Positions 5,786 to 22,605 of a DNA stretch of 64,000 nt are shown piece after piece. Location: contig NZ_CP095045.1 in assembly GCF_022919155.1 (NCBI RefSeq), positions 3,224,001 through 3,288,000 of the forward strand. The letters are read 5' to 3'. Each line of letters opens with the position of its first letter. Positions within the stretch are counted from its first letter, which is position 1. The DNA comes from Leucobacter allii (GTDB lineage: Bacteria > Actinomycetota > Actinomycetes > Actinomycetales > Microbacteriaceae). The notes below the pieces were generated by a model. That model was not told the origin of the DNA. It was given only the letters and a program-made list of their open reading frames with translations, and did not search any database. The translations under genes were made by a program, and so were the position numbers.

Positions 5786-6460
5786 ATGACCGTGAAACGG
5801 GGACGCCCCACCGCCGCGGAGCGCGCATCCCGGCGGCTCCGCGTCGCGCGGGCCGTCGCCCAGCTGCTCGTCGCCGAGGGCTGGGACGCGGTGACCTTCG
5901 ACCGCCTGGCCGCCGAGACCCGGGTCGCCAAGCGCACGCTCTACGCCGACTTCGGCGACCGCGCGGGGCTCGTGCGCGCGGCGATGCAGCGGCTGCACGG
6001 CACCCTCGACGACCCGCCCCGGCCCGAGCGGCTCGAGGACGCCGCGCGCGACCTCGTCGCGCAGCTGCTGAGCGACGAGGCCGTCGGCGTCCACCGCGCC
6101 GTCATCGCCGCGGCCGCGCGCGATCCGGAGCTCGCGGCCGCGTTCTACGCCGCCGGCCCCGCGCAGGCGCAGGAGCGCCTCGCCGCGCTGCTGTCCGAGG
6201 CGGCGGTGCCGCCGGACGCGCCGGCACCACCCGCCGAGCGCGCGGCGATCCTCTTCGCGGCGCTCCTCGGCGAACCGCACCGGCGGCGCCTCCTGGGTCT
6301 CGATCCGGCGCCGCTCGACGCCGCGGTCGCGGCCCACGTCGACCGCGTCCTCGCCGCGTTCACGCCGCGGGCAGCGGATCCCCCATCGCCGCACGCGCCT
6401 CCTCCACGAGCGCGATCGTCTCGATCGAGCGATCCAGCGGACGCAGCGGCGACTCGGTGA
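5786..6460 (+). CDS. TetR-family transcriptional regulator
   Basis: A 224-residue regulator with an N-terminal TetR helix-turn-helix. VTFDRLAAETRVAKRTLYADFGDRAGLV (residues about 46-73) has the usual TLY-FG recognition helix. The remainder is a helical ligand-binding domain of the AcrR type. The last 35 residues or so are Pro/Ser/Arg-rich and are read through the 3' end of the converging dehydrogenase gene; they probably add little to the fold. It is divergent from the DUF952 gene with a palindrome between them, which suggests autoregulation and control of that gene. Ligand unknown. Confidence 0.85.
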   Translation: MTVKRGRPTAAERASRRLRVARAVAQLLVAEGWDAVTFDRLAAETRVAKRTLYADFGDRAGLVRAAMQRLHGTLDDPPRPERLEDAARDLVAQLLSDEAVGVHRAVIAAAARDPELAAAFYAAGPAQAQERLAALLSEAAVPPDAPAPPAERAAILFAALLGEPHRRRLLGLDPAPLDAAVAAHVDRVLAAFTPRAADPPSPHAPPPRARSSRSSDPADAAATR

Positions 6461-7427
6461 GCCCGGCGTCGATGCACCGGGCGACCTCGAGCGCCTCCCA
6501 GAAGAGCTGGTCGTGCGCGAGCGCCGGCTCGTCGACGCGCAGCTCCGTGCCCGCGGGGACGCCCGTCCGCGCCGCATCGCCGTGGAAGCGCACGACGACG
6601 GGACCCGGCTGGTAGAAGGGCGCCTCGAGGATCAGCGTCGCCTCGGTGCCCGCCACGTAGGCCGTGGTCGGGGTGTCCGCGAGCATCGAGGCGCTGACCG
6701 TGGCGAGGCGATCCCCGTCGTCGCCGAGCAGCGCGTGGAACTCGCCGATCGCACCGGGGCCGGCCGCACCCGGCAGGGCGTGGCGGCGGCCGTGCGCCGC
6801 CCGCACCCGGAGCCCCGGGATGATCTCGTTCGCGAACATGAGCGTGTACGAGCCGAGGTCGTTCATCACGCCGCCGCCCTGCGCCGGGTCCATCGCGCGG
6901 TGGTGGTCGACGAGGCGCTCGCCGAGATTCGCCTGCACCTCGACCACGTCGCCGAGCATCCCCTGCTCGAGGATCTGGCGGATCACCGCGTAGCGCGGCA
7001 GCGTCACCGTCCACACGGCCTCCATCGCGAAGAGCCCCCGAGCCCGGGCGAGCGCCGCGAGCGCTCGGGTCTCGGCGAGACGCGGCGTCATCGGCTTCTC
7101 CACGAGCACGGGCCTGCCCGCCTCGAGCGCGAGCGCGGCGTGCGCGAAGTGGTCGAGGTGCCCGGTGGCGACGTAGACGACGTCGATGTCGCTCGCGACG
7201 AGCTCCTCGTAGGAGCCGTAGGCGTGCGCGATGCCGTGCTCGGCGGCGAACGCCTCGGCGCGGGCGAGGCTGCGCGAACCGACCGCGACGACGCGCTGGT
7301 TCGTGTGCTCCCGCAGCGAGCGCACGAACTGCGCGGCGATCCAGCCGCTGCCGAGGATCGCCCAGCGCAGGGACGGTCCGGTGCGGGGATCGGGCAGCTG
7401 CGGCTGCGGCAGCACGGGGACGCTCAT
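6360..7427 (-). CDS. Gfo/Idh/MocA-family oxidoreductase (last gene of cyclitol operon)
   Basis: A 355-residue NAD(P)-dependent dehydrogenase of the Gfo/Idh/MocA family. The Rossmann motif is GSGWIAAQFV near residue 26, and the catalytic VEKPM motif lies near residue 113. The C-terminal half is the usual mixed-sheet substrate domain. Its ATG overlaps the stop of the iolG-like gene as ATGA. As one of four such dehydrogenases in this locus it probably oxidises or epimerises a second hydroxyl of a cyclitol or a sugar-derived intermediate; the exact position cannot be inferred. Its 3' end overlaps the converging TetR gene by about 100 bases. Confidence 0.9.
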   Translation of the reverse strand: MSVPVLPQPQLPDPRTGPSLRWAILGSGWIAAQFVRSLREHTNQRVVAVGSRSLARAEAFAAEHGIAHAYGSYEELVASDIDVVYVATGHLDHFAHAALALEAGRPVLVEKPMTPRLAETRALAALARARGLFAMEAVWTVTLPRYAVIRQILEQGMLGDVVEVQANLGERLVDHHRAMDPAQGGGVMNDLGSYTLMFANEIIPGLRVRAAHGRRHALPGAAGPGAIGEFHALLGDDGDRLATVSASMLADTPTTAYVAGTEATLILEAPFYQPGPVVVRFHGDAARTGVPAGTELRVDEPALAHDQLFWEALEVARCIDAGLTESPLRPLDRSIETIALVEEARAAMGDPLPAA

Positions 7428-8422
7428 CGCGCGTCCCCGACCGCCACGAAGGCGCCGCCGGCGCGCATGGAGGCGACCGCGGCCGCCGCGACGCGGGTGG
7501 CCTGCGCGCCGTCCTCGACGGTGGCGAGCGTCGGCGCCCGGCCCTCGTTCAGCGCCGTCACCCACTCCTGCAGCTCGAGCCGGTAGGCCTCGGCGAAGCG
7601 CGGCCGGAAATCCGCCGGGATCGGCGTGCTCGCGGCGAGCGCCGATCCCGTGACGACGCGATGCGGTTCCGTGATCGCGACGGTGCCCGTCTCGCAGAGC
7701 ACCTCGGAGCGCATGTCGTAGCCGTAGCGCGCGTTGAGCGAGTTCTCCACCGTCGAGAGCGCCCCGTCGGCGGTGCGCAGCAGCAGGAGGAAGGGCTCGC
7801 GCAGCTCGGGGTGCTGCCCGCTCGGCGTCTCGGGGGCGTGCCAGCTCACCGCGGTGACCGGCGAGCCGAGCAGCCACGGCACCACGTCGATGTCGTGGAT
7901 CGCGGAGTTGTAGATCACCGTCTCGTCGGTGGCGCCGGGGCCGGTCGCCATGCCGCGGCCGATCGAGTGCACCATGACGGGGCGGCCGTGCGCGCCGGAA
8001 TCGACGGCCCGCTTCTGCTCGACGTACCCGGGATCGAAGCGGCGCATGAAGCCCTGGTGCACGAGCGGGATCCCGTCGCCCACCTTCTCCCGGTGCGCGG
8101 CGACGACGCGCTCGGCATCGGCCACGGAGTACGACAGCGGCTTCTCGCAGAGCGTCGGCTTCCCGGCGGCGATGCAGGCGAGGGTCTGCTCGGCGTGCAG
8201 GGAGTCGGGCGAGGCGATGAGCACCGCTTCGACCTCGGGGTCGGCGATGAGCTCCTGCGCGTCGGCGAAGGCGCGGGCTCCCGGGATCGCGGCGACGACG
8301 GCCTCCGCGCGGTCGATCGCGGGGTCCGCGACCGCGACGACGGTCGCCCCGGAGACCTGCTCGTGCAGCAGGCCGACGTGGAAGGCGCCCATGACGCCGG
8401 TGCCGATGATGCCGATTCTCAT
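7424..8422 (-). CDS. iolG: Inositol 2-dehydrogenase-like protein
   Basis: The 332-residue Gfo/Idh/MocA enzyme most like inositol 2-dehydrogenase, which converts myo-inositol to 2-keto-myo-inositol with NAD. The Rossmann motif GIIGTGVMGAFHV is at residues 4-16, the catalytic Lys is in LCEKPLSYS near 95, and the IolG-typical segments GFMRRFDPGYV (about 124-134) and AIHDIDVVPWLLG (about 174-186) are both present; the latter includes the Asp/His pair of the active site. It lies in an operon with IolE-like and other dehydrogenase genes, with IolD in the neighbouring operon, so an inositol isomer is the likely substrate. Other cyclitols remain possible. Confidence 0.85.
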   Translation of the reverse strand: MRIGIIGTGVMGAFHVGLLHEQVSGATVVAVADPAIDRAEAVVAAIPGARAFADAQELIADPEVEAVLIASPDSLHAEQTLACIAAGKPTLCEKPLSYSVADAERVVAAHREKVGDGIPLVHQGFMRRFDPGYVEQKRAVDSGAHGRPVMVHSIGRGMATGPGATDETVIYNSAIHDIDVVPWLLGSPVTAVSWHAPETPSGQHPELREPFLLLLRTADGALSTVENSLNARYGYDMRSEVLCETGTVAITEPHRVVTGSALAASTPIPADFRPRFAEAYRLELQEWVTALNEGRAPTLATVEDGAQATRVAAAAVASMRAGGAFVAVGDAR

Positions 8423-8482
8423 AGTGCGCTCCTGTGTCTGGTGCGTGGGAATGGTGGGAGGTGGTGCGGGATGCGGCGCGGG

Positions 8483-9282
8483 CTACTGGTCGTAGGCGCC
8501 CGGGACGTTCTGATCCCAGTCGATGATCGATCCGGTGACGACGCCGCTGCGGTCGCTGAGCAGGAAGACCACCGCGTCGGCGATCTCGTCGGGCTGCCCG
8601 AGCTTGCCCATCGGCTGCGCGGCCGATGCCTCGGCGAGCCAGTCCGGCGCCGCGTCGTGGAAGGTCTGCTGGGTGACGGCCTCGCCGGGCGTCGCCGTCC
8701 ACCCGATGTTCAGGCCGTTGATCCGGATCCGATCGAAGCGGTGCGCGAACGCCGCGTTCTTCGTCAGCCCCGCGAGTCCCGCCTTCGAGGCCACGTAGGG
8801 GCGAGGTAGGGCTGGCCGCCGTGCATCGACATGCTGATGATGTTCAGGATCGTGCCGGGCGCCCGCCGCGCGGTCATGTCGGCCACGGCGCCCTGCATGG
8901 TCATGAACGGCGCCGTGATGTTGAGGGTCAGGTGCTCCTCGAGCAGTTCGCGCGTCGTGTCGAGGAGCGTGCCCCGGCTCGTCGCGCCGGCGGCGTTGAC
9001 GAGGCTGTCGATGCGGCCGAAGCGCGCGACCGTCTCGGCGACGGCGCGCTCGGCCGCGCCGGCCGCGCCGAGATCGGCGATGATCGCGATGGCGTCGCAG
9101 TCCGCGGATCCCGCTGCCGCGGCACGGATCGCCGCGAGCGCGACCTCCGCCTTCTCGGGGTTCCGCCCGACGATCGCGATGCCGCTCGCGCCCTCGCGGG
9201 CGGCCGCCTCGGCGATCGCGCGCCCGAGTCCCTGCGTGCCGCCCGTCACCAGCACCACCCTGTCCTGCATCAGCGCCTGCAT
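8483..9282 (-). pseudogene. Short-chain dehydrogenase (SDR), broken by one frameshift
   Basis: A classical SDR in two frames. The first frame (ATG at 9282, GGAG ribosome site) has the cofactor motif TGGTQGLG near residue 15 and NAAGA near 92. The second frame, ending at 8483, continues with the catalytic YVASK and the C-terminal segment GSIIDWDQNVPGAYDQ. The switch falls in a run of four G (8798-8801, C on the coding strand) just before the catalytic Tyr; one extra base restores a normal protein of about 266 residues. It lies inside the cyclitol operon and would oxidise a hydroxyl group. Either a recent inactivation or, more likely, a homopolymer sequencing error. Confidence 0.85.
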
Positions 9283-9335
9283 GCCGTCTCCTTCGTCCGG
9301 GAGGTTCCCCTCCGATGTCCTGCACATACCGCGGG

Positions 9336-10412
9336 TCAGTCCGCGAGCCGCCCGGGTCGCAGCGGCAGCCCGCTCGCCAGGGAGATCTCATCGATCAGCG
9401 CCATCGTGCGGCGCGAGCGCGCGAGCAGCGCGGTCGCGCGCTCGCCGCCCCGCACGGCCGCGCGGATGCGCCGCAGCTGGAAGGCGTAGGACGAGGTGCC
9501 GCTGACCCGCTCCACCCGCTCGGCGGCACCGCCGGCCGCTTCCGCAGCGCCCGCGCCCGCGCCGCCGCCGCGGACGATGAGCCGGCCGTCCTCCTGCGGC
9601 TTCACGAAGTTGGGCAGCAGCACCTCGCCGGTGTCGCCGACGAGCCGCAGGGAGAAATCCCAGCCGTCGCTCTCCATGCTCGTGCGGAGATCGACCGGGA
9701 TGCCGGCGAGCGAGAGCTCGGCCTCGACGGTCGCGTCGACGCGGGGATCCGGGGCGTACGGCACGGCACGGGCGCTGCGCAGCTGCGGGATCGCGGGGGT
9801 CGGATCCGCGCCCAGCTCCTCCCCGAGCAGCAGCAGCACGTTGAGGGCGTAGCAGCCGAGATCCATCATCGCGCCGCCGGCGAGGTCGAAGCTCCAGCGC
9901 GGATCGCTCGCGGGCGGCGCCGGCATCTCCATGCGCACCTCGATCTGGCGCAGCCGCCCGATGCCGCCGTCGCGCACGATCGCGATGAGGCGGGCGAGCG
10001 CGGGGTGGTCGGCGTAGTGGAACGCCTCCCACGCCCACCCCTCGGCGGCCTCGAGCCGCGCCGCGACCCGGTCGAACTCCGCGAGGTTCGCCGCGAACGG
10101 CTTCTCCACGAGCACGTTGCGGCCCGCGTCGAGGGCGCGGGCCGTCCACTCGGCGTGGAGCCCGTTGGGCAGGCCGATGTAGACGAGGTCGAGGGAGTCG
10201 TCGGCGAGTAGCGCCCCGTAGTCCTCGTGCACGCGGGCGAATCCGTGCTCCGCGGCGTAGGCGCGGGCGCGCTCGGGGTCGCGAGCCGCGACCGCGGCGA
10301 GGATCTCGCCCGTCGCCGCGCTCGCCTCCAGGATCGCGAGCTCCGCGATCCGGGAGGCGCCGAGCATGCCGATCCGGAGCGGAGCGGCCTCCGCGTGCGG
10401 CGATGCGCTCAC
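9336..10412 (-). CDS. Gfo/Idh/MocA-family oxidoreductase
   Basis: A 358-residue dehydrogenase. LRIGMLGASRIAELAI near residue 12 is the NAD(P)-binding motif and VLVEKPFAANLAEF near 104 carries the catalytic EKP. The middle-domain segment GGAMMDLGCYALNVL is typical of glucose-fructose oxidoreductase relatives. The GTG start at 10412 overlaps the stop of the IolE-like gene as GTGA, so the two are translationally coupled. A Gly/Ala-rich insertion of about 20 residues lies near residue 290. Probably acts on a keto-inositol or related sugar in the same pathway; specificity is unknown. Confidence 0.88.
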   Translation of the reverse strand: MSASPHAEAAPLRIGMLGASRIAELAILEASAATGEILAAVAARDPERARAYAAEHGFARVHEDYGALLADDSLDLVYIGLPNGLHAEWTARALDAGRNVLVEKPFAANLAEFDRVAARLEAAEGWAWEAFHYADHPALARLIAIVRDGGIGRLRQIEVRMEMPAPPASDPRWSFDLAGGAMMDLGCYALNVLLLLGEELGADPTPAIPQLRSARAVPYAPDPRVDATVEAELSLAGIPVDLRTSMESDGWDFSLRLVGDTGEVLLPNFVKPQEDGRLIVRGGGAGAGAAEAAGGAAERVERVSGTSSYAFQLRRIRAAVRGGERATALLARSRRTMALIDEISLASGLPLRPGRLAD

Positions 10413-11278
10413 GCTGCGACCGCCTCGCGGATGAACGCCACGCTGCGCCGCGCGTCGGCGAAGGCGCGCGCGGCGCCCGCCTCGTCCTCCACCACCGCGT
10501 CCTGCTCGAGCACGAACCAGCCGGCGTACCCGGCGTCCCGCAGCGCGGCGAGGATCTCGGCGATGCGCGCGTCGCCGGATCCGAGCGCGCGGTACATGCC
10601 CTGCCGCACGCCCTCGCGGTAGTCGATCTCGCCCGCGCGCACGCGGCCGGCCACCTCCAGGCTCACGTCCTTGAGATGGGCGTGCACGATGCGTCCGGCG
10701 TGCCGTCGCACGAACGCGACCGCGTCGCCGCCGCCGAGGGTGTAGTGCCCCGTGTCGAGGCAGAGGCCGATGCGCGAGCCCGCGACCACCCGCTCGACCG
10801 CCTCGGGGGATTCGACGACGGTGCCGAGGTGCGGATGCAGCACGGCGACGACCCCGGCCGCCGCGGCCGCGTCGAGCGCGCGATCCAGATTCGCGAGCAG
10901 CGTCCGCCATTCCGCGTCGCTCAGCTCGGCCGCGCCGTCGTAGCCGGCGGCGCCGGTGACGGCGGAGAGCACCAGCGTGCCCGCGCCGGCGGCGGAATAG
11001 GCGCGGAGCTCGCGCTCGATCGCGGGGAGCGGATCCGCCTCCTCCCGGTGGAGCACGATCGGGAAGAACCCGCCGACGGCTTCGAGCCCGGCCTCGGCGA
11101 GCGCCGCGGCCCGCTCGGCCGGCGCGTCCGGGAGGAAGCCCTCCGGGCCGAACTCGGTGGCGGTGATCCCGAGCGAGACCATCTCGGAGAGCACGCGCTC
11201 CCGGTCGAGCTGCAGGCCCCATTCGGGGACCTCGATGACGCCCCAGCTGATCGGGGCGGAGGCGATGCGCGGGGTCAT
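10409..11278 (-). CDS. iolE: IolE-like sugar isomerase/dehydratase (xylose-isomerase-like TIM barrel)
   Basis: A 289-residue TIM-barrel protein of the AP-endonuclease 2/xylose isomerase fold. ITATEFGPEGFLP near residues 38-50 and HPHLGTVVESPEAVE near 147-161 match segments seen in IolE (2-keto-myo-inositol dehydratase). Metal-ligand candidates are Glu in TEFGP, His/Asp in GLCLDTGHYTLGG, HAHLKDV, and the late Glu in VLEQD. In the inositol pathway this enzyme makes the diketone hydrolysed by IolD, which is encoded in the next operon. A related isomerase/epimerase role is possible. It is followed by a Gfo/Idh/MocA gene with a GTGA overlap. Confidence 0.78.
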   Translation of the reverse strand: MTPRIASAPISWGVIEVPEWGLQLDRERVLSEMVSLGITATEFGPEGFLPDAPAERAAALAEAGLEAVGGFFPIVLHREEADPLPAIERELRAYSAAGAGTLVLSAVTGAAGYDGAAELSDAEWRTLLANLDRALDAAAAAGVVAVLHPHLGTVVESPEAVERVVAGSRIGLCLDTGHYTLGGGDAVAFVRRHAGRIVHAHLKDVSLEVAGRVRAGEIDYREGVRQGMYRALGSGDARIAEILAALRDAGYAGWFVLEQDAVVEDEAGAARAFADARRSVAFIREAVAA

Positions 11279-11342
11279 ATGAACTCCTTCGTTCGGGGTC
11301 GGGCCGGGGGTGCCGGCCGGGGGGCTGGGGTGGTCCGTACGC

Positions 11343-12566
11343 TCAGGATCGGATCGCCGCGGTCGTGCCGGCGACGGGGGCGCTCGCCTCCCACGCCCGC
11401 GACTCGGCGGAGCGCTCGGCGGCGGTGACGACCTGGGCGGCGGAGAGCGCGTCCTGGATGTTCGAGTTCAGGGACTCGCGGCCGAGCACGGCCTGCAGGA
11501 ACTTCTTGGCCTCGATCACCTTGAGGTCGTCGTAGCCCATCGAGGTGCCCGCCCCCGGCTGGAAGCGGCCGAAGTCCCCCATGCCCGGGCGGGCCATGAT
11601 GCGGGTGTAGCCCTGATCCTCGGCGCCGAGACCGCCCGAGAGGTGCAGCTCGTTGAGCCGTTCGAAGTCCCAGTGGGCCGAGCCCGCCGTGCCGTAGACC
11701 TCGATGCCGTAGCTGGCGCGCGGGCCGACCGCGACGCGCGAGGCCTCGAGGGTGCCGACGGCGCCCGCGGCCGTCGCATCGTCCGCGAGGCGCACGAGCA
11801 TGCCGGCGTAGTCCTCGTTCTCCACCGGCTTCATCTCGCCGTCCTCGATGACGGCGAAGTGCGTCCCGGTGCCCATGGGGAGCTCGGGGCGCTCCGTGTA
11901 GACGGTGGAGGCGACGGCGCTGACCTCGGCGATCGGGCCGAGCGCGTACTGCACGAGGTCCACGAGGTGCCCCATGAGGTCCCCGAGCACGCCGTTGCCG
12001 GCGAGCCCGCGGACGAAGCGCCAGGAGAGGGCGCCGCGGGGGTCGGCCGAGTAGTCGGCGAACATCTGGCCGCGCACGTTCGTGATGCGGCCGAGACGGC
12101 CGGAGGCGACGAGTTCGCGGAGGTACTCGACGGCGGGCGCGTGCCGGTAGTTGAAGCCGATCGAGCTGACGACGCCGGCCTCGGCCGCAGCCTCGGCGAC
12201 CGCGCGCGTCTCGTCCTCGCCGCGGCCGACGGGCTTCTCGATCCAGAAGTGCTTGCCGGCCCGCGCGGCGGCGATCCCGATCTCGGCGTGCAGGAAGTTC
12301 GGGGCGCAGATGGAGACCACGTCGACCTCGGGATCGGCGAGCACCTCGTGGTAGTCGGCGGAGGCGCGCGCGTAGCCGAGCACCTGCACCGCCTCCTCCG
12401 CGCGTGCGGGGGCCGGATCGGCGGCGTGGACGAGGCGGGGGCGGATGCCGAGGTCGGCGTAGGCGTAGCGCAGGTTCGCGTACGCGCGGCTGTGCAGCTG
12501 GCCCATCCATCCGACGCTGATGAGGCCGACTCCGATCTCGGTGGTGCCGTCTGCAAGAGTGCGCAT
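11343..12566 (-). CDS. Gfo/Idh/MocA-family oxidoreductase, first gene of the LacI-controlled operon
   Basis: A 407-residue dehydrogenase starting MRTLADGTTEIGVGLISVGWMGQLHSRAYA (in sequence), where GVGLISVGWMGQ is the cofactor-binding segment. WIEKPVGRG near residue 98 holds the catalytic Lys, and the middle domain has GVLGDLMGHLVDLVQYALG. ATG at 12566 was chosen over upstream in-frame ATGs because those lie in the promoter and operator. It heads six genes (to 6360) in one direction. Longer than the other three family members here because of extra C-terminal helices. The reaction is probably oxidation of a cyclitol or its derivative. Confidence 0.88.
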   Translation of the reverse strand: MRTLADGTTEIGVGLISVGWMGQLHSRAYANLRYAYADLGIRPRLVHAADPAPARAEEAVQVLGYARASADYHEVLADPEVDVVSICAPNFLHAEIGIAAARAGKHFWIEKPVGRGEDETRAVAEAAAEAGVVSSIGFNYRHAPAVEYLRELVASGRLGRITNVRGQMFADYSADPRGALSWRFVRGLAGNGVLGDLMGHLVDLVQYALGPIAEVSAVASTVYTERPELPMGTGTHFAVIEDGEMKPVENEDYAGMLVRLADDATAAGAVGTLEASRVAVGPRASYGIEVYGTAGSAHWDFERLNELHLSGGLGAEDQGYTRIMARPGMGDFGRFQPGAGTSMGYDDLKVIEAKKFLQAVLGRESLNSNIQDALSAAQVVTAAERSAESRAWEASAPVAGTTAAIRS

Positions 12567-12655
12567 GGTCGTTCGCTTCCGTCGTGGTGCCGGGCACCGC
12601 TTCCCTGGTCCGGGCCCGCCGGGTGCGACGCGTCGACGCTGACGCCCCCAGAAAA

Positions 12656-12698
12656 TGGACCGGTCCAAATTGTAAGTACATGCGCGAGCGGGTGTCAA
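12656..12698 (-). promoter_or_regulatory. LacI-type operator and sigma-70-like promoter of the six-gene cyclitol operon
   Basis: On the minus strand, TTGACA (12698-12693), an 18-base spacer and TACAAT (12674-12669) form a strong promoter. The perfect palindrome TGGACCGGTCCA (12656-12667) follows directly after the -10 box, at the expected transcription start. The same promoter-operator design occurs at 21364-21409 beside the LacI gene, so the two operons are very probably co-repressed by that protein. Confidence 0.8.
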
Positions 12699-12773
12699 GC
12701 GGCGCCCGGCGCGGCGGGCAGGCGCCGATCCGCCCCCGCCCCGCCGAAGCCCACCGAAACCCCACGAAACCCC

Positions 12774-12834: not shown

Positions 12835-12903
12835 AGTGCCTGGGTGACTTCGTGGCGCCCGGGGGATCTCGCAGGGTCTCGGAGTTCCGGGGGTCCGGCG
12901 CCG

Positions 12904-14927: not shown

Positions 14928-14949
14928 GGAACTCAACTCTCTCGGGCGA

Positions 14950-15972
14950 TCAGCTCTCGCTGTCGGCCGCGTCCTCCGCGCCCTCGAACTGCGCGGCGAC
15001 GCTGTCGAGGTTGTCGGCGTTGACGACCGCGGGGCCCGTCAGCACGGCCTGTCCGCCGCCGAGCACGTATCCGCCCGTGGCGTAGAGGCGCACCGCTTCG
15101 ACCGACTCGTAGCCCTGCAGGAACGGCTGCTGATCGATGCCGAAGAGGATCGACCCGTCGCCGATCGCCGAGTAGACGTCGGCGTTGAGGTCGGTGGTGG
15201 CCAGCTTCGCGCTCGAGCCGGCGTCGGCGATCGCGTCGAGCGCGGTCATCGCGAAGGGGGCGCCGAGGGTGAGCACCGCGTCGATATCGGCGTTGGTCTG
15301 GAGCTTCGATGTGATCGTCGAGGCGACGTTCGTCATGTCCGTGCCCGTGACGTACAGCACCTCCGAGGATCCGGCGAAGGTGTCGGCGAAGCCCTCGCAG
15401 CGGGACTCGAGGCCGACGTGCCCCTGCTCCTGGATCACGCAGATCGCCTTCTGGGCGCCGGCCTCGTTGAACTCCTCCGCCGCGGCCTGGCCGGCGATGA
15501 ACTCGTTCTGACCGAAGTGCGCGAGCACGCCCATGTCCTTGTAGGCCTCTTCGCCCGCGTTGATGCTGAAGACCGGGATGCCGGCGTCGACCGCCTTCTG
15601 CACCTCGCCGGCCATGGCGTCGGCCTTCGCGAGGGTGACGACGATGCCGTCGACGTCCTGATCGACCGCCTGCTGGACGAGCTGGGCCTGGCGCGCGCCG
15701 TCGGGATCGGAGCTGTAGAGCAGTTCGACGTTGTTGCGCTCGGCCGCGGCCTCGGCACCGGCGCGGATCGTGTCCCAGAAGGTGTCGCCCGGGGCGGCGT
15801 GAGTGACCAGGGCGACCTTGAGCTCGTCCTCTTCCACGGCGGATCCGCCGCCGCCGGCGGCCCCGCCGCCCGCTCCCGCCGGGCTGCCGCAGGCCGCCAG
15901 CATGAGGGCTCCGGTCGCCGCGACTCCGGCGAGTCCGAGCTTGCTCCACCGGCCAAAACGTGACTTCAACAT
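14950..15972 (-). CDS. Sugar ABC transporter substrate-binding lipoprotein (periplasmic-binding-protein-4 type)
   Basis: A 340-residue binding protein with a signal peptide, lipobox LAAC (mature Cys near 28) and a Gly-rich linker. The mature part has the RbsB/peripla_BP_4 fold: ALVTHAAPGDTFWDTIRAG (about 54-72) is the first ligand loop, VDGIVVTLAKAD the next beta strand, and GIPVFSINAGE the hinge region. A GGAG ribosome site stands 8 bases before ATG. It is the first gene of the importer operon. The upstream region lacks the GGACCGGTCC operator found at the two enzyme operons, so the importer may be controlled separately. Confidence 0.92.
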   Translation of the reverse strand: MLKSRFGRWSKLGLAGVAATGALMLAACGSPAGAGGGAAGGGGSAVEEDELKVALVTHAAPGDTFWDTIRAGAEAAAERNNVELLYSSDPDGARQAQLVQQAVDQDVDGIVVTLAKADAMAGEVQKAVDAGIPVFSINAGEEAYKDMGVLAHFGQNEFIAGQAAAEEFNEAGAQKAICVIQEQGHVGLESRCEGFADTFAGSSEVLYVTGTDMTNVASTITSKLQTNADIDAVLTLGAPFAMTALDAIADAGSSAKLATTDLNADVYSAIGDGSILFGIDQQPFLQGYESVEAVRLYATGGYVLGGGQAVLTGPAVVNADNLDSVAAQFEGAEDAADSES

Positions 15973-16052
15973 AGTTTCACTCCATCGTGCTTTTTGAACT
16001 AATGTCGTTACAAAGCTTGCGCTCTGCGTTTACAGTACCGCAACTTCGCCCG

Positions 16053-16970
16053 TTAGGCATCACCCACGGTAAAGGTTGGATAACGACCCTCCAGCGTAGC
16101 CGCCACCGCTTCCGCCGCCATGCGGAAGGTCTCGCGGAGCGCCTGCTCCGACAGGCCGGAGGTGTGCGGGCTGAGCAGCACCCCGGGCGCGTCGGCGAGC
16201 GGATGCCCGCGCACCGGCTCCGCGGCGAACACGTCGAGGCCGATCCCGCCGAGCACGCCCTCCGCCAGCGCGGCCTCGAGCGTCCCGGTCGAGACGAGCC
16301 CGGCGCGGGCGCAGTTGACGAGCACGAGCCCCGGTCTCGCGGTGCGCAGGAGCGGCAGCGGCAGCAGCTCCCCGCCGCCGCCCGGCAGGTGCAGGGTGAG
16401 CGCGTCCGCGCGCGCCACCGCCTCGGCGAGCGTCACGTTCTCGTGCGCCTCGGCCCGCACGTGGGGATCGTGCACGAGCACGCGCATGCCGAACGCCGCG
16501 CCGAAGCCCGCCACGATCCGGCCGATGCGCCCGTAGCCGAGCACGGCGAGGGTGCTGCCGTGCAGGTCGCCGGGCGTCGGCACGGGATCCCGGCCCCAGC
16601 GGTCGCCGGCGACGTGCGCGTGGGACTGCGGTACCCGTTTCACGAGCGCGGCGAGCATCGCGAAGGCCCCCTCGGCGACCGCGCGGCTGTTGCTGCCGGG
16701 CGTCACGGCGACGGCGACGCCCCGCTCCCGTGCGGCGGCGACGTCGACGCGCTCGACGCCGACGCCCGTGCGGGCGATGACCCGCAGCCGGGGCATGCGG
16801 GCGAGCAGCGCGCGGTCGACGTCGACCGCGGCCCGCACGATGGCCGCCTCGGCCGCCGCGAGCTCGGCGTCCCCCGGATCGGCGACGAAGCGGGCGTCGG
16901 CGGGGAGGAACGGGGTCACGAGCGCGGGATCGACGGGGCCGAGCCCGACGACGACGGGGCGGTCGCTCAC
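16053..16970 (-). CDS. D-isomer-specific 2-hydroxyacid dehydrogenase
   Basis: A 305-residue NAD(P)-dependent enzyme that interconverts 2-keto and D-2-hydroxy acids. It has the Rossmann motif GYGRIGRIVAGFGAAFG near residue 144, the substrate Arg in VLVNCARAGLV near 215, the Glu in FAAEP near 246 and the catalytic His in LLSPHTSGLSEQA near 265. Length is normal. The GTG start overlaps the aldolase stop (GTGA), which couples it to a HpaI-type aldolase. A fitting role is reduction of a keto acid released by that aldolase, for example hydroxypyruvate to glycerate; this is inferred. Confidence 0.88.
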   Translation of the reverse strand: MSDRPVVVGLGPVDPALVTPFLPADARFVADPGDAELAAAEAAIVRAAVDVDRALLARMPRLRVIARTGVGVERVDVAAARERGVAVAVTPGSNSRAVAEGAFAMLAALVKRVPQSHAHVAGDRWGRDPVPTPGDLHGSTLAVLGYGRIGRIVAGFGAAFGMRVLVHDPHVRAEAHENVTLAEAVARADALTLHLPGGGGELLPLPLLRTARPGLVLVNCARAGLVSTGTLEAALAEGVLGGIGLDVFAAEPVRGHPLADAPGVLLSPHTSGLSEQALRETFRMAAEAVAATLEGRYPTFTVGDA

Positions 16971-17782
16971 CGCCCGTTCCCCCCGAGACCCGGCGGGATC
17001 GCCCCGCGCATCGTCGCCGCGAGCAGGGTGGCGTCGGAGCCGATGGCGATGAAGCCGAAGCCGCGGGCGAGGTACGCCTCGGCGCCCGCGCGGTCGTTCG
17101 TCAGGATCCCGGCGACCGCGCCGTGCGCGCGGCAGGCGGCGACGACCGCGCCGAGCGCCTCCTGGAACTCCGGCGCGTCGAAGCGGCGCGGGGCGCCGAG
17201 CGCGTAGCTGAGATCCTGCGGGCCGACGAAGAGGACATCGGCGCCGGGGGTCGCCGCGATCGCGTCGAGCTCCGCGAGCGCGCCGACGGTCTCGATCTGC
17301 ACGATCCCGACCGCGCGCGCGTCGGCGGCGTCGAGGGCGTCGACCTCGGCGCCCCAGCGGGCCGCGCGGTTGTAGGTGGCGACGCCGCGATCCCCCGCGG
17401 GCGGATAGCGGAGATGGCCGAGCGCGACCCGGGCCTCCGCGGCGCTCGAGACGCGGGGCAGCATGACTCCGGCGGCCCCGGCGTCGAGCACCCGCCCGAT
17501 CCGGATCCGCGTCGGCTCCTCTACGCGCACGAGCGCGGCCGCGCCGTAGCCGCCCACCGCGGCGACGATCGCGCCGACCTGCGCCTCGGATCCCCCGCCG
17601 TGCTCGAGGTCGGCGAGCACCCAGTCGAGGCCGGCGGAGGCGCACACCTCCGCCGCGGTCGCGGAGCCGAGCCCGAGGAAGGTGCCGACGGTCGGCCCGC
17701 CCGCGCGGAGCCGGGCGCGCAGCGCGCGGCCGGGCGCGAGCGGCGAGGGGGCCGCCACGCCGTCGGACGCCGGCGCGCTCAT
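16967..17782 (-). CDS. HpcH/HpaI-family class II aldolase
   Basis: A 271-residue metal-dependent aldolase of the 2-keto acid type (HpaI, GarL, YfaU). The general-base motif DLEHGGGSEAQV near residue 50 corresponds to DLEHGPND, with the acidic metal ligands in VQIETVGALAEL (Glu, near 150) and FVGPQDLSYALG (Asp, near 176). It cleaves or forms a bond next to pyruvate or a related 2-keto acid. It lies between IolD and a 2-hydroxyacid dehydrogenase with overlapping starts, replacing the phosphate-dependent IolJ aldolase expected in an inositol pathway. Confidence 0.88.
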   Translation of the reverse strand: MSAPASDGVAAPSPLAPGRALRARLRAGGPTVGTFLGLGSATAAEVCASAGLDWVLADLEHGGGSEAQVGAIVAAVGGYGAAALVRVEEPTRIRIGRVLDAGAAGVMLPRVSSAAEARVALGHLRYPPAGDRGVATYNRAARWGAEVDALDAADARAVGIVQIETVGALAELDAIAATPGADVLFVGPQDLSYALGAPRRFDAPEFQEALGAVVAACRAHGAVAGILTNDRAGAEAYLARGFGFIAIGSDATLLAATMRGAIPPGLGGNGR

Positions 17783-19758
17783 CCGTGCCACCGCTGCTGC
17801 GCGCGGCCCGCGCCGTACTCGGCGAGCTTCGCCGAGGTGTCGACGCGCTCCCAGGCCTCGGCGGGCGAGACGTCCCACCACACCTCGGAGGCGGGCAGGT
17901 CGGCGTGCGGGATCGTGGGCACGACGATGACGACGGGACCGGCCGCGTCGCGGGTCTCGGCGAGCGCCGCGCGCACCTCCGCGGCCGTCGCGGGGGTGCG
18001 CACCTCGGCGCCGAGGCCGGCCGCGATCTGCGCGAGGTCGATCCGGAGATAGTCGCCCGAGAGGCCGGCCGCGTCCGAGCCGGCGAGCGAGCCGCCCGCC
18101 TCGCGGTAGCGGAACTCGTTGGCGAAGTGCTCGCCGGTGCGCCACATCTGCAGCCGCCGGATCACCTGGTAGCCGTGGTTCTCGGAGACGACGATAGTGC
18201 ACGGGATGCCCTCCTGCGCCGCCGTCACGATCTCGGTCGGCATCATCACGAAGGTGCCGTCGCCGATGAGCGCCGTGACCCGGTGCGCGGGATCCGGATC
18301 GGCGAGCCGCACCCCCATCGCGGCCGGCAGCTCGTACCCCATGCAGGAGAAGCCGAACTCAAGGTGCGCGGCGCGGCCGCCCGTCGCGTCCCACACCTTC
18401 TGCAGATCGCCGGGCGGGCCCCCGGCAGCGGCCACGATCGTGTCGCCCGGGCGGGCGTGCTCCTGCAGCAACCCGATGAGCTGGCCCTGCGTGAGGGTCG
18501 CGCCCGTGACCGGGAGCTCCGGGTGATCCGCCAGCGGGAACGGCGCATCCGGGTCCGTCGCCGCATCGCGCACGGGGAGCCACGCGTCGCGGGCGCCCGC
18601 GACATCCGCGGCCCACGCCGCGGGGATCCGGTAGTCGCCGAGCTCTGCGGCGAGCGCCGCCAGCGCCAGGCGGGCGTCGGCGAGCACGGCCTCGGCGCCC
18701 TGCTTCACGGCGTCGTGCTCCACGATGTTGATGGATGCGAACCGCACCCCCGGGTCCGCGAACAGCGACTGGGAGGCGGTCGCGAAATCGGTGAGCCGGG
18801 TGCCGACGTGCACGACGAGATCGGCGCGCTCCGCAAGGCGGTTCGTCGTCGGCGCGCCCTCGAGCCCGATCCCGAACACGCTCCACGGCCCGTCCTCCGT
18901 GACCGCGCCCTTGCCGGCGAAGGTCTCCGCGATGGGCAGCCCCGTCCCGCGGCCGAGCTCGGTGAGGACGCCCTGCGCGTCGGCGTAGACGACGCCGCCG
19001 CCGGCGATGACGAGCGGACGCTCCGCGCCGCGGATGCGCTCGGCGAGCCGGGCGATCTCCGCCGCATCGGGGACGCGGCGGCGGATCGTCCAGTCGCGTT
19101 CGGCGAAGAGCTCGACGGGGAAGTCGAAGGCGTGCGCCTGCACGTCCTGCGGCAGCGCGAGCACCACGGCGCCCGTCTCCTCGGGATTCGCGAGCACCCG
19201 GAAGGCCTGCGGCAGCGCCGTGAGCAGCTGCTCGGGGCGGGTGATGCGGTCGAAGAAGCGGGAGACCGGGCGAAAGGCGTCATTCACCGTGACGTCGGGG
19301 GTGCCGGGGAGGTCGAGCTGCTGCAGCACGGGCCCCTGGCGGCGGGTCGCGTAGGTGTCGCCGGGCAGGAGGAGCAGCGGGATGCGGTTCACGGTGGCGA
19401 GGGCGGCCGCCGTCACGAGGTTCGTGGCGCCGGGGCCGATCGACGCCGTCACCGCGAGCGTGCGGCGGCGCTTCGCCGCCCGCGCGAAGCCGGTGGCGAG
19501 GTGCCCGAGCGCCTGCTCGTTGCGCCCCTGCACGAAGGGCAGGGCGTCGGCGTGCTCGGCGAGCGCCTGCCCGAGGCCGGCGACGTTGCCGTGGCCGAAG
19601 ATGCCGAGGGCGGCGGGGACGAAGCGCTCGCGGACGCCGTCGGCGAGCGAGTACTGCGCGGCGATGTAGCGGACGATCGCCTGGGCGACGGTGAGCCGGA
19701 CCGTCCGCCCGGAGGGGCCGGGCACGGCGGTCGATTGCGGGGCGGGGTGCTGGGTCAT
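17779..19758 (-). CDS. iolD: 3D-(3,5/4)-trihydroxycyclohexane-1,2-dione hydrolase (IolD-like, ThDP enzyme)
   Basis: A 659-residue thiamine-diphosphate enzyme that opens the six-membered ring of the inositol-derived diketone to give 5-deoxyglucuronate. IolD-typical segments are GIFGHGNVAGLGQAL near residue 52, QGRNEQALGHLATGFA near 77 (ThDP-activating Glu) and the cofactor motif LIGDGTFVMMPTEIVTA with SENHGYQV near 497-530. Length matches IolD (about 640). The ATG overlaps no upstream gene; 63 bases separate it from the aldehyde dehydrogenase gene before it. This is the strongest marker that the locus breaks down an inositol or a similar cyclitol. Confidence 0.9.
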   Translation of the reverse strand: MTQHPAPQSTAVPGPSGRTVRLTVAQAIVRYIAAQYSLADGVRERFVPAALGIFGHGNVAGLGQALAEHADALPFVQGRNEQALGHLATGFARAAKRRRTLAVTASIGPGATNLVTAAALATVNRIPLLLLPGDTYATRRQGPVLQQLDLPGTPDVTVNDAFRPVSRFFDRITRPEQLLTALPQAFRVLANPEETGAVVLALPQDVQAHAFDFPVELFAERDWTIRRRVPDAAEIARLAERIRGAERPLVIAGGGVVYADAQGVLTELGRGTGLPIAETFAGKGAVTEDGPWSVFGIGLEGAPTTNRLAERADLVVHVGTRLTDFATASQSLFADPGVRFASINIVEHDAVKQGAEAVLADARLALAALAAELGDYRIPAAWAADVAGARDAWLPVRDAATDPDAPFPLADHPELPVTGATLTQGQLIGLLQEHARPGDTIVAAAGGPPGDLQKVWDATGGRAAHLEFGFSCMGYELPAAMGVRLADPDPAHRVTALIGDGTFVMMPTEIVTAAQEGIPCTIVVSENHGYQVIRRLQMWRTGEHFANEFRYREAGGSLAGSDAAGLSGDYLRIDLAQIAAGLGAEVRTPATAAEVRAALAETRDAAGPVVIVVPTIPHADLPASEVWWDVSPAEAWERVDTSAKLAEYGAGRAQQRWHG

Positions 19759-19821
19759 GGGTGAGCTCCTGTGCTTCCTGTGCGTGCTGTGCTGATCTGG
19801 GGGGGGCGGAGGGGTGCCGTG

Positions 19822-21342
19822 CTAGCCGTGCAGGATGACGGTCTTCACCTCCGTCATCTCCTCGACGGTCGAGCGGATGCCCTCCTTGCCGTAACCGCTC
19901 GCCTTGAAGCCCCCGTAGGGCATGAGATCGGCGCGCCACAGCGGCGTCCACCCGAGATGGACGCTGCCCGCGTCGATCTCGCGCATCGCGCGCACGCCCT
20001 CGGCGAGGGTGCCGCCGAAGACCCCGGCGGCGAGCCCGTATGGGGTGCCGTTCGCGGCGTCGATCGCGGCGTCGAAGGAATCTACCGCGGTGACGGCGAC
20101 GGCGGGGCCGAAGAGCTCCTCCTGCGCGAGCGGGTGCCGGGTGTCGACCCCGGTCACGATCGCGGGCGAGACGAAGGCCCCGTCGCGCTCCCCGCCGGTG
20201 AGGAGCCGCGCACCGTCCGCGACGGCGCGCGAGATGCTGCGCTCGACCCGCTCCGCCTCGCGGCGGGCGATGAGCGGGCCGAGCGCGGTGCCCTCCGCGA
20301 AGGGGTCGCCCATGCGGATCGCCTCGACCTTCGGCTGCAGCGCGGCGAGGAAGTCGGCTTCGACGGCGCGGTGCACCACGACGCGCTGCACGGAGATGCA
20401 GACCTGCCCGGCATTGGCGTAGCCGCCGGCGGCGACGGCGCTCGCCGCGCGCTCGATATCCGCGCCCGGGAGGACGAGCGTGGGCGAGGACGCGCCGAGC
20501 TCGAGGGAGAGCTTCTTGATGCCGGCGAGCGCCGAGATCCGCTCCCCCACACCCGTGGAGCCGGTGAAGGAGATCTTCCGCACGCGCGGATCCTGCACGA
20601 GCGCGTCCCCGAGGACCCCGCCGGAGCCCGTGAGCACCGAGAGCACGCCCGCGGGCAGGCCGGCCTCCTCGAAGACGCGCGCCAGGGCGATCGCCGTGAG
20701 CGGGGTGGCGCTCGCCGGCTTGAGGACGACCGCGTTGCCCGAGGCGAGGGCCGGGCCGACCTTGTGCAGCACGAGCAGCGCGGGGTAGTTGAAGGGGGTG
20801 ATGGCGACGACGACCCCCACGGGCTGACGGAGCGTGAACCCCACCTTGTCCTGTCCCGTGCCGGGGTTCGCGTCGACCGGGAGGCTGTCGCCGTAGAGCT
20901 GCGTCCCCTCGTGGGCCGCGAGACGGATGATCGCGCCCGAGCGCCGCGCCTCACCGAGCGCCTCGGCGAGCGGCTTGCCGTTCTCGGCGGAGATCGTCGC
21001 CGCGAGCTCCGCCGAACGCGCCTCGGCGAGCTCCGCGGCGCGGAGCAGGATCGCGGCGCGCTCGTGGGCCGGGGTGCGCCGCCAGCGCGCGGCGCCCCGC
21101 ACGGCGGCTGCGACCGCGGCGTCGGCGTCGACGGCGGTCGCGACGGCCACCTCGCCGACCACGGATCCGTCGAAGGGGGATCGGATCTCGGCGCGCCCGC
21201 CGTCCGAGGCCTCGCGCCAGGCGCCGTCGATGAGCAGGCCGTGGCGGCCGAAGCCCCGCCGCTGCGCGCCGCCGTCCGGCGCCGCGCGCTCGCGCCGCGC
21301 CTCCCGGTCGATCCGTTCGTCTCGATCGCGCTCCTCGTGCAT
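19822..21342 (-). CDS. NAD(P)-dependent aldehyde dehydrogenase
   Basis: A 506-residue aldehyde dehydrogenase. ITPFNYPALL near residue 170 and SFTGSTGVGERI near 243 bind the cofactor, the general base is Glu in LELGAS near 268, and the catalytic Cys is in NAGQVCISVQR near 302. A charged N-terminal extension of about 35 residues precedes the core. It is not of the MmsA/IolA CoA-acylating type, judged from these motifs. ATG at 21342 follows AAAGGGG; earlier in-frame starts fall within the operator. It is the first gene of the ALDH-IolD-aldolase-dehydrogenase operon and would oxidise an aldehyde intermediate such as 5-deoxyglucuronate or malonate semialdehyde. Confidence 0.9.
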   Translation of the reverse strand: MHEERDRDERIDREARRERAAPDGGAQRRGFGRHGLLIDGAWREASDGGRAEIRSPFDGSVVGEVAVATAVDADAAVAAAVRGAARWRRTPAHERAAILLRAAELAEARSAELAATISAENGKPLAEALGEARRSGAIIRLAAHEGTQLYGDSLPVDANPGTGQDKVGFTLRQPVGVVVAITPFNYPALLVLHKVGPALASGNAVVLKPASATPLTAIALARVFEEAGLPAGVLSVLTGSGGVLGDALVQDPRVRKISFTGSTGVGERISALAGIKKLSLELGASSPTLVLPGADIERAASAVAAGGYANAGQVCISVQRVVVHRAVEADFLAALQPKVEAIRMGDPFAEGTALGPLIARREAERVERSISRAVADGARLLTGGERDGAFVSPAIVTGVDTRHPLAQEELFGPAVAVTAVDSFDAAIDAANGTPYGLAAGVFGGTLAEGVRAMREIDAGSVHLGWTPLWRADLMPYGGFKASGYGKEGIRSTVEEMTEVKTVILHG

Positions 21343-21363
21343 GCGCCGCCCCTTTCGCCGTTG

Positions 21364-21409
21364 ATTTGGACCGGTCCAAATTGTATGCACATGTGCGTCG
21401 CGAGGTCAA
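21364..21409 (-). promoter_or_regulatory. LacI-type operator and promoter of the ALDH-IolD operon
   Basis: ATTTGGACCGGTCCAAAT (21364-21381) is a perfect 18-base palindrome. On the minus strand it follows TTGACC (21409-21404), an 18-base spacer and TACAAT (21385-21380), so it would cover the transcription start. The layout and core (GGACCGGTCC) are identical to the site at 12656-12698. The divergent LacI gene starts 90 bases away and may be autoregulated. Confidence 0.82.
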
Positions 21410-21471
21410 GGGCGCCGCCGGGGGCAGTCTGCCCGGCGCGCTTGCCCGCTCGCGCGTGGCACGATGGTCTC

Positions 21472-22605
21472 GTGACCCCCCGAGACGATGCGCCGACCCG
21501 GGCGTCCGGCGCGGGCCGGGACGCGGGCTCGCGCCCGGACGCCAGCTCGGGCCCGGACGCCGGCTCGGGCCGTCCGACCATGCGAGACGTCGCCGAACGG
21601 GTCGGGCTCTCCCGCCAGCTCGTCTCGATCGTGCTGCGGGGCGCGCCGGGCGCGAGCGAGGCGTCGCGGGAGCGGATCCTCGCGGCGGCGCGCGAACTCG
21701 GCTACCACCCCGACGACTCCGCCCGGATGCTCCGCCGGCGGCGCAGCGGGCAGATCGGCGTGCTGTTCACCATGCGACAGCCCTTCGAGCTCGACGTCGT
21801 CGACGCGCTCTATCGCAGCGCCGCCGCGCGCGGCTACACGCTCGCCCTCGGCGCGATCGGCACGAGCCGCCCGCAGGAGGCCGCGCTCGCCGAGCTCATG
21901 CGGCAGCGGATCGAGGCGCTCATCGCGCTCGACGCCGAAGGCGCGGGCGGGATCGGTGCCGAGCGCCTCTCCGGCCTGCCCGGTGGGATTCCGGCGCTGC
22001 TCCTCGGCGGGCCGACCTCGGACGAGCCGCACGATCGCGTCGGCGTCGAGAACGCCGCGGGGATCGCCCTCGCGGTCGACCATCTCGCCCGCCTCGGCCA
22101 CGAGCGCATCGCATACGTCGGGCCGGAGACGGGCCCGAACGCCGCCGAGCGCATCTCCGGCTACCGCGCCGCGATGCACGAGCGCGGACTGCGGGACCGC
22201 ATCGTCCCGAGCGACTACACCGAGGCGGGCGGGTACCGCGCGGCGGCATCGCTGCTGGACGAGGGGCTCGGCGGCGCCGTCGCCGGCGCTTCCGGCCGGA
22301 CGTCCGCCGCGCCGACCGCGCTGGTGTGCAACAACGACCACTGCGCGATCGGGGTGCTGCAGACTCTCGTGCGCGCCGGGGTGCGCGTCCCGGAGGACGT
22401 CTCCGTGATCGGATTCGACGACAGCACGGCCGCCGCGCTCCCCTTCGTGCGGCTGACGAGCGTGCGGCCCGATCCCGAGCGCCTGGCCGAGCTCGCGATC
22501 GCCGCGGTGCACGCGCGGCTCGAGGCCCCCGGCGCGCCGCCGTCCGTCGCGCTCGTCGCGCCGACCCTCGCCGTGCGCGAGAGCACGGCGGCGCCCAGAC
22601 GCTAG
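21472..22605 (+). CDS. LacI-family transcriptional regulator of the cyclitol locus
   Basis: A LacI/GalR repressor, 377 residues from GTG at 21472 or 341 from ATG at 21580. The extra N-terminus is a low-complexity repeat (PDASSGPDAGSG) and the HTH starts right after it: MRDVAERVGLSRQLVSIVLRG, then the hinge helix DDSARMLRRRRSG. The C-terminal part is a sugar-binding domain, with VGVENAAGIALAVDHLARLGH and VIGFDDSTAAALPFVRLTSV as usual landmarks. It is divergent from the ALDH-IolD operon and next to a palindromic operator that recurs before the second enzyme operon. The likely inducer is the imported cyclitol or an early intermediate. Confidence 0.9.
   Translation: MTPRDDAPTRASGAGRDAGSRPDASSGPDAGSGRPTMRDVAERVGLSRQLVSIVLRGAPGASEASRERILAAARELGYHPDDSARMLRRRRSGQIGVLFTMRQPFELDVVDALYRSAAARGYTLALGAIGTSRPQEAALAELMRQRIEALIALDAEGAGGIGAERLSGLPGGIPALLLGGPTSDEPHDRVGVENAAGIALAVDHLARLGHERIAYVGPETGPNAAERISGYRAAMHERGLRDRIVPSDYTEAGGYRAAASLLDEGLGGAVAGASGRTSAAPTALVCNNDHCAIGVLQTLVRAGVRVPEDVSVIGFDDSTAAALPFVRLTSVRPDPERLAELAIAAVHARLEAPGAPPSVALVAPTLAVRESTAAPRR

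Follow-up and report, generated by a model that had tools for sequence, protein, structure and literature searches.

How can a cyclitol be degraded below the ring-opening hydrolase IolD where no genes for the isomerase IolB and the kinase IolC lie beside it? This question is raised by a gene cluster of Leucobacter allii, located in a 64,000-nucleotide stretch of the contig NZ_CP095045.1 (positions 3,224,001 to 3,288,000), which is called here the window and from whose first letter the positions of the cluster are counted. The minus-strand cluster spans 21342 to 6360, has a divergently transcribed LacI-family gene at about 21580-22605, and combines enzymes of the upper inositol pathway with an aldehyde dehydrogenase (ALDH), a HpaI-type aldolase, and a D-2-hydroxyacid dehydrogenase (2HADH). 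An earlier reading of the letters alone (the sequence-only reading) had taken it for a phosphate-free route replacing the missing IolB and IolC. As a replacement this idea fails, since IolC, IolB, and IolA score above their cut-offs and are encoded together with a Cgl0159-like aldolase in one operon of the same genome; as an additional branch it has become stronger. With moderate confidence, we propose that the cluster is a LacI-controlled module that degrades inositol or a closely related cyclitol, comprising a separate upper pathway and a lower branch that is oxidative and kinase-free and would operate beside IolB, IolC, and the Cgl0159-like aldolase.

Gene Content of the Locus

Profile searches confirmed the IolG-, IolE-, and IolD-like enzymes, the aldehyde dehydrogenase, the HpaI-type aldolase, and the D-2-hydroxyacid dehydrogenase named in the sequence-only reading. 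Its description needs amendment in that there are four Gfo/Idh/MocA genes (GfoA to GfoD), that the two halves of the cluster are separated by an ABC transporter, and that the gene of a short-chain dehydrogenase/reductase (SDR) is split over two frames. The genes are listed below, those after the regulator in their order on the minus strand.

21580..22605, plus strand: LacI-family regulator (PF00356 and Peripla_BP_3); the start is approximate, being the first M of the helix-turn-helix region
19822..21342, minus strand: ALDH (PF00171, 511 bits); the chosen start is the ATG at 21342, and the open frame reaches 21390
17779..19758, minus strand: IolD, trihydroxycyclohexane-1,2-dione hydrolase, second type (TIGR04377, over cut-off)
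16970..17782, minus strand: HpaI-type class II aldolase (PF03328; relatives in PDB are HpaI and GarL)
16053..16970, minus strand: 2HADH (PF00389/PF02826; closest in PDB is phosphoglycerate dehydrogenase), putative C2 dehydrogenase, hydroxypyruvate reductase, or both
14950..15972, minus strand: sugar ABC transporter, substrate-binding protein (PF13407)
13881..14936, minus strand: sugar ABC transporter, permease (PF02653)
12904..13884, minus strand: sugar ABC transporter, ATPase (PF00005)
11343..12566, minus strand: GfoA, Gfo/Idh/MocA dehydrogenase of the scyllo-inositol/levoglucosan dehydrogenase type
10409..11278, minus strand: IolE-like inosose dehydratase (PF01261; TIGR04379, below cut-off)
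9336..10412, minus strand: GfoB, Gfo/Idh/MocA oxidoreductase (PF01408 and PF22725)
8483..9282, minus strand: SDR oxidoreductase (PRK06198-like), frame broken near 8790; the halves were searched separately
7424..8422, minus strand: GfoC, IolG-like inositol dehydrogenase (NF052679 and TIGR04380, both below cut-off)
6360..7427, minus strand: GfoD, Gfo/Idh/MocA oxidoreductase (PF01408 and PF22725)

IolD passes the curated NCBIfam cut-off of TIGR04377 (750.7 vs 715 bits). The top family of IolE, TIGR04379, gives 158.6 bits against a cut-off of 290, and GfoC reaches 209.6 against 355 with TIGR04380 and 232 against 540 with NF052679. The best NCBIfam match of the aldolase, the HpaI family TIGR02311, is likewise not passed (176.9 vs 368.8). 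Assignment of the ALDH to IolA, the methylmalonate-semialdehyde dehydrogenase (MMSDH), was rejected, as TIGR01722 yields 276.7 bits against a cut-off of 448.5. With the chosen starts, overlaps of 1-4 bp connect IolD with HpaI, HpaI with 2HADH, the permease with the ATPase, IolE with GfoB, and GfoC with GfoD. The SDR frame changes at a C-rich run of the assembly; it is unbroken in three of five relatives checked, and the break in the window may be either a sequencing or assembly error or gene decay.

The Canonical Operon and the Carriers of the Block

The source genome is a single contig of 3.56 Mb. A search for iolB, iolC, and iolA throughout it had been named beforehand as a test of the replacement idea, and all three were found, a set elsewhere in the genome being one half of what was to speak against that idea. 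They belong to a canonical operon about 0.17 Mb from the block, which consists of a GntR-type gene, iolC, a Cgl0159-like gene, iolA, iolB, iolD, and IolE-like and IolG-like genes, and further includes another IolE-like TIM barrel as well as a sugar transporter of the major facilitator superfamily (MFS). IolC (376.5 vs 300 bits), IolB (233.6 vs 205), IolA, and IolD each exceed the cut-off. The Cgl0159-like gene, which we take to be the aldolase of this operon, matches PF22649 with 422.6 bits, and the IolE-like gene, as in the window, stays below the TIGR04379 cut-off (123.1). The absence of IolB and IolC is thus true of the window, where neither has a place, but not of the organism, and the block was rejected as its sole inositol pathway. 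A second IolB-like gene of the KduI family, below the IolB cut-off, was also observed (L002, G000:C1:783064-783666), with an IolC-like kinase, likewise below its cut-off, some 10 kb away.

Carriers of the block were counted in 28 genomes, from which G024 (a non-block relative), G211 (the same as G184), and G213 and G214 (no block) were set aside, leaving 24. MMSDH/IolA is above cut-off in 23 of these; two or more matches to IolD, some of them partial, were found in 22. In ten genomes (G096, G199-G201, G204-G208, G215), both IolDs lie on one contig at a distance of about 15-37 kb. The block-type IolD is the only one in G133 and G186, where iolC, the Cgl0159-like gene, and iolB adjoin the block. 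For instance, the G133 run reads iolC, Cgl0159 aldolase, iolB, LacI, ALDH, IolD, HpaI, GfoA, 2HADH, ABC transporter, and then Gfo, SDR, IolG-like, IolE, GfoB, and iolA, the last being one of two MMSDH genes of this genome. The shared contigs and the arrangement in G133 and G186 fit two lower branches departing from one IolD product and argue against replacement.

Two carriers have appeared in the literature: Leucobacter musarum and Nesterenkonia muleiensis are named, with gene counts and categories, as examples of large inositol clusters in the excerpts of PMC9430895, which contain no mention of an ALDH-HpaI-2HADH branch. Both species carry the block (L046, L053) and, on the same contig, a second IolD with IolB.

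Conservation of the Block in Micrococcales

The sequence-only reading had proposed looking for the same ALDH-HpaI-IolD block in other Microbacteriaceae, and it is indeed found contiguous in many Micrococcales genera. We collected 33 block loci, one per genome, from Leucobacter, Nesterenkonia, Gulosibacter, Rhodoluna, and other Micrococcales of several families; L058 (on the same contig as L108, G184/G211), L060-L062 (IolD identity of 49-56%, no block), and loci with a canonical IolD were excluded, and the short loci L021 and L023-L029 were exchanged for longer stretches from the same genomes. In all 33, ALDH, IolD, and HpaI are contiguous with IolD in the middle. 2HADH follows HpaI in 32, directly or behind GfoA (in L138, behind GfoA and a LacI gene), and the sole miss is at a contig end. 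IolE lies within the available stretch in 21 loci, and several of the other stretches end too early. The SDR gene is absent from L073, L106, L140, L142, and L143, all of which extend past IolE.

The catalytic residues are kept throughout: HpaI (D, H, R, E, D), ALDH (Glu and Cys), and IolD in 33 of 33 loci, 2HADH (R/E/H) in all 31 readable sequences, and GfoA in 27 of 27. The conserved aldolase residues presumably have the metal-binding and acid-base roles of their HpaI counterparts, and the general-base Glu retained in ALDH is also present in hydrolytic ALDHs, the type to which it is assigned.

In a sample of 396 genomes from the order, with the best three candidates per genome scored, nine further genomes have an IolD that is 63-68% identical to that of the window, every one with the block; four IolDs at 49-51% belong to canonical iolC/iolB clusters without it. 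The block IolDs form a single clade (25 rows, support 100/100) apart from the canonical Micrococcales IolDs, which argues for an old second lineage rather than a recent copy. An Egibacteraceae relative of the block IolD is located beside iolB and iolC, with no HpaI match within 21.9 kb.

Several other arrangements were seen. L110, L113, and L115 contain a third, deep-branching IolD type together with GfoA-like and IolC/Cgl0159 genes; all come from small Microbacteriaceae genomes in which the block is present as well, and IolB is found too, farther off in L115. An RmlD-like NAD-dependent epimerase/reductase gene adjoins the block in small genomes (L058 14894-15877, L105 13018-14091, L106 5779-6741), and in Leucobacter tardus an inositol monophosphatase-family gene follows it (L054 20975-21850). 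These RmlD-like and monophosphatase genes, as well as MFS and acyltransferase genes near the blocks of relatives, gave no firm clue to the substrate. In Caldilineaceae (L061 5345-11950), genes for a PhyH dioxygenase, a GH4 glycosidase, a HpaI aldolase, and a Gfo enzyme form one run with an IolD at 49%; this may be a third version of the association, directed at galactosyl- or methyl-cyclitols.

A Diverged Gene Set in Proteobacteria

In a Burkholderiales metagenome-assembled genome (MAG; L065), a canonical iol operon with an IolD of the canonical type is adjoined by IolG-Gfo-ALDH-HpaI-2HADH, and the closest PDB relative of this aldolase is the hydroxyketoacid aldolase SwHKA. A plasmid search with the L065 aldolase returned 288 records, 267 of them below 60% identity. 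Twenty were listed and the contexts of 12, picked rather than drawn at random, were viewed; in ten (Rhizobium, Paracoccus, Acidiphilium, Qingshengfaniella, Jiella, and Shinella), ALDH-HpaI-2HADH has IolD and/or IolE nearby. Four more sets came from an IolD search and so contain IolD by selection (L164, L165, L167, L170; Pantoea, Klebsiella, and Paracoccus). The Micrococcales contiguity and this diverged set together bear out the sequence-only reading in so far as ALDH, HpaI, and 2HADH are linked to IolD and IolE by position.

Among these 15 proteobacterial stretches, iolB is found in three (L065, L157, L167) and iolC in the same three and L152; elsewhere, IolB was seen for R. daejeonense and Jiella among the 60 listed of 146 records of a plasmid IolB search. 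Except for that of L065, the module IolDs are of a type of their own (65-78% to the L151 IolD). Three IolDs at 53-55% were viewed, and these lie beside iolC, an isomerase, and a class II aldolase, with no HpaI. SDR matches (37-54% over the two halves) and GfoA-like matches recur in the proteobacterial modules.

Between the two phyla, identity is 32-37% for ALDH, 30-34% for HpaI, 32-38% for 2HADH, and 38-40% for IolD. The HpaI proteins form two clades, the proteobacterial one enclosing aldolases from other contexts (with long branches flagged). We infer two separate assemblies of the set, one in Actinomycetota and one in Proteobacteria. The plasmid searches gave no IolD close to the window type (eight records, all at 41-43%) and only five records, at 38-41%, for the window HpaI; the proteobacterial ALDH-HpaI-2HADH DNA had no match at 1e-20 in E. 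coli genomes.

Desaturase-family, MocE-type ferredoxin, and phytanoyl-CoA dioxygenase genes occur near some modules (L151 1-2400, L156 21400-24768, L158 1038-2147, L163 987-2096), a hint at methylated or amino cyclitol substrates. On the Jiella plasmid (L156 7500-12000), IolD and ALDH each match in two pieces, have no table annotation, and may be broken.

Candidate Operator Sites

Two palindromic sites in the window are candidate binding sites of the divergent LacI-family regulator.

21365..21380: perfect palindrome TTTGGACCGGTCCAAA, candidate LacI operator, 22 bp before the chosen ALDH ATG
12654..12669: second copy with two mismatches, candidate second operator upstream of GfoA

A minus-strand TACAAT overlaps the upstream edge of the first site, and the second has the same TACAAT flank; it precedes GfoA, the head of the second half of the cluster. 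At up to three mismatches these are the two matches in 64 kb, versus 0.03 expected from shuffles. When 21 of the 33 loci were scanned with two mismatches allowed, the palindrome was found upstream of ALDH in 17, and in L138 it instead precedes the binding-protein gene. It was not found in four canonical-operon stretches scanned (L003, L120-L122). The exact 12-base core is present in 15 of 170 loci, each of them a block locus. We infer that LacI binds this palindrome, and the block is apparently a separately regulated gene set.

Proposed Pathway

The route outlined here is predicted from sequence in its substrate, in every reaction and their order, in LacI regulation, and in the fate of hydroxypyruvate. 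The substrate would be imported by the ABC transporter and oxidized to an inosose by one or more of the Gfo enzymes, the inosose would be dehydrated by IolE, and IolD would open the ring to give 5-deoxyglucuronate, which has an aldehyde at C1, a CH2 group at C5, and a carboxyl at C6. At this compound the block branch and the IolB/IolC/Cgl0159 branch would part. HpaI-type aldolases need a 2-keto acid; thus the direct way from 5-deoxyglucuronate is oxidation at C1 and C2, for which the conserved core supplies ALDH and 2HADH. ALDH would oxidize C1 to give 5-deoxyglucarate, and 2HADH, or less likely SDR or Gfo, would oxidize the adjacent (R)-hydroxyl to the 2-keto acid. Cleavage by the HpaI aldolase between C3 and C4 would then yield hydroxypyruvate and malonate semialdehyde, the latter passing to IolA. 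Enzymes of the HpaI family can use hydroxypyruvate, which was accepted by 19 of 571 class II aldolases screened, with C3 exclusively S (excerpts of PMC7610986). The proposed chemistry employs each conserved enzyme class once. The expected substrate would be 3S, and R at C2, according to the glucose-series stereochemistry and the D-series used by the 2HADH family. The alternative that HpaI substitutes for the aldolase IolJ on the phosphorylated keto acid was rejected on the same requirement for a 2-keto acid.

The upper half (Gfo, IolE, IolD) and the predicted end product malonate semialdehyde, passed to IolA, are common to this route and to canonical myo-inositol catabolism (IolG-IolE-IolD-IolB-IolC-aldolase-IolA). 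The block differs in having ALDH, HpaI, and 2HADH in place of the isomerase, the kinase, and the phosphate-aldolase, and no phosphorylated intermediate is proposed. The IolC-DUF2090 aldolase, as described in excerpts of PMC9007349, is another lower-pathway solution without IolJ, but it acts on a phosphorylated intermediate. The block aldolase is similar to HpaI, GarL, and SwHKA in the PF03328 domain and active-site residues, and differs from them in falling below the equivalog cut-offs, in having Leu where SwHKA has Phe (position 210), and in a core without an acid-sugar dehydratase. Scyllo-inositol and levoglucosan dehydrogenases (PDB 6a3f being, we assume, the latter) are nearly tied as relatives of GfoA, with 233 vs 232 bits. 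The closest solved relative is the scyllo-inositol dehydrogenase of P. laeviglucosivorans, whose K106, D191, H195, Y135, and R178 are kept in GfoA (substrate and triad roles after excerpts of PMC5969746).

Alternative Explanations

A number of observations weigh against the proposed branch. IolB and IolC are both above cut-off in 23 of the 24 carriers, so that the branch is not required by gene content alone; the 24th, a 0.9-Mb partial MAG, has a partial IolC and no IolB match, and no complete genome with the block and without IolB/IolC was found among the 24. The glycerate kinase family PF02595 is missing in seven of them, all of 0.9-1.4 Mb (in one of them a fragment interrupted by stops scores below cut-off, and only G092 is known to be a single contig), and PF13660 was found in none of 17 block genomes tested. 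PF02595 is missing as well in five of 27 non-block relatives, four of them small, which points to a small-genome trait; nevertheless, conversion of hydroxypyruvate via glycerate to 2-phosphoglycerate is doubtful in the seven small carriers as far as these two kinase families are concerned. In SwHKA, which accepts hydroxypyruvate, F210 contacts this compound (excerpts of PMC10099721); by alignment with PDB relatives, the 33 block aldolases all have Leu at the equivalent position, whereas each of the 13 proteobacterial aldolases aligned has His. In GfoA, Y163, E165, and H318 of the P. laeviglucosivorans enzyme are replaced by M, A, and T (alignment by eye). Two of the 12 plasmid contexts (L159, L161) have a mandelate-racemase-type dehydratase and no IolD in the stretch. 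A pyruvate carboxylase gene adjoins the module in two alphaproteobacteria (L154 12003-15437, L167 1-3198) and could hint at pyruvate rather than hydroxypyruvate. Finally, three of the block loci scanned (L108, L136, L144) gave no match to the palindrome, and many others do not contain its exact core.

The module may instead serve another cyclitol, such as a stereoisomer, a deoxy- or O-methyl-inositol, or an aminocyclitol, whose ring-opened acid IolB cannot isomerize, a reading that we rate clearly below the one preferred. The chemistry would be the same, and since no stereocentre survives the combination of ALDH, oxidation at C2, and HpaI cleavage, unusual configurations or a methoxy substituent could be tolerated. 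In line with it are the second IolD and IolE, the four Gfo genes, the separate transporter, a palindrome for which the canonical operon gave no match, the altered GfoA substrate residues, the oxygenase-type neighbours of some proteobacterial modules, and the dioxygenase and glycosidase beside the Caldilineaceae IolD. However, no oxygenase was identified among the block genes of the window, and the block-type IolD lies with iolB and iolC in G133 and G186, where it is the only IolD, as does its Egibacteraceae relative, so that an IolD of this type probably forms the standard product. It is unlikely that the aldolase instead frees pyruvate, with 5-deoxyglucarate or another acid dehydrated to 4-hydroxy-2-ketoadipate, HpaI releasing pyruvate and malonate semialdehyde, and 2HADH acting elsewhere. 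This compound is one carbon shorter than the classical HpaI substrate, the Leu at the F210 position is shared with HpaI of PDB 4b5s, and the pyruvate carboxylase neighbours would fit; but the conserved core has no acid-sugar dehydratase, IolE being its sole dehydratase-like enzyme, and 2HADH, found in both phyla, would be left without a step.

The order given in the sequence-only reading, with Gfo or SDR oxidizing C2 and 2HADH reducing hydroxypyruvate to glycerate, now appears improbable. The 2HADH family does include hydroxypyruvate reductases, and SDR and GfoA-like genes recur in Proteobacteria. Still, the SDR is frameshifted in the window and absent from five long stretches, GfoA is of the inositol/levoglucosan dehydrogenase type, and the glycerate leg is doubtful in the seven small carriers that lack both kinase families; we therefore favour 2HADH, as the best-placed core enzyme, for oxidation at C2. 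It is very improbable that ALDH, HpaI, and 2HADH form an unrelated acid-sugar pathway that shares only regulation or neighbourhood with IolD. The two aldolases beside mandelate-racemase-type dehydratases would agree with this, and an archaeal relative of the window aldolase (L160) is also next to a dehydratase, with no IolD; against it stand the position of IolD between ALDH and HpaI in all 33 Micrococcales block loci and the recurrence of the association with another aldolase subfamily.

Implications for Inositol Catabolism

Standard accounts present the breakdown of inositol below IolD as a single phosphorylating route, and no description of the route proposed here was found in open-licence PMC papers. 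Tentatively, and somewhat less firmly than for the L. allii module itself, we suggest that a second, kinase-free lower route exists, which would have arisen in Actinomycetota and in Proteobacteria by separate assembly, from different aldolase subfamilies and with a dedicated second IolD at its centre, and which would function beside IolB and IolC as a branch or as an exit for cyclitols that IolB cannot handle. If so, 5-deoxyglucarate and its 2-keto acid are predicted as new metabolites, and HpaI-type aldolases would have a new natural role. The annotation of inositol clusters would also change, and IolD alone would not imply IolB and IolC.

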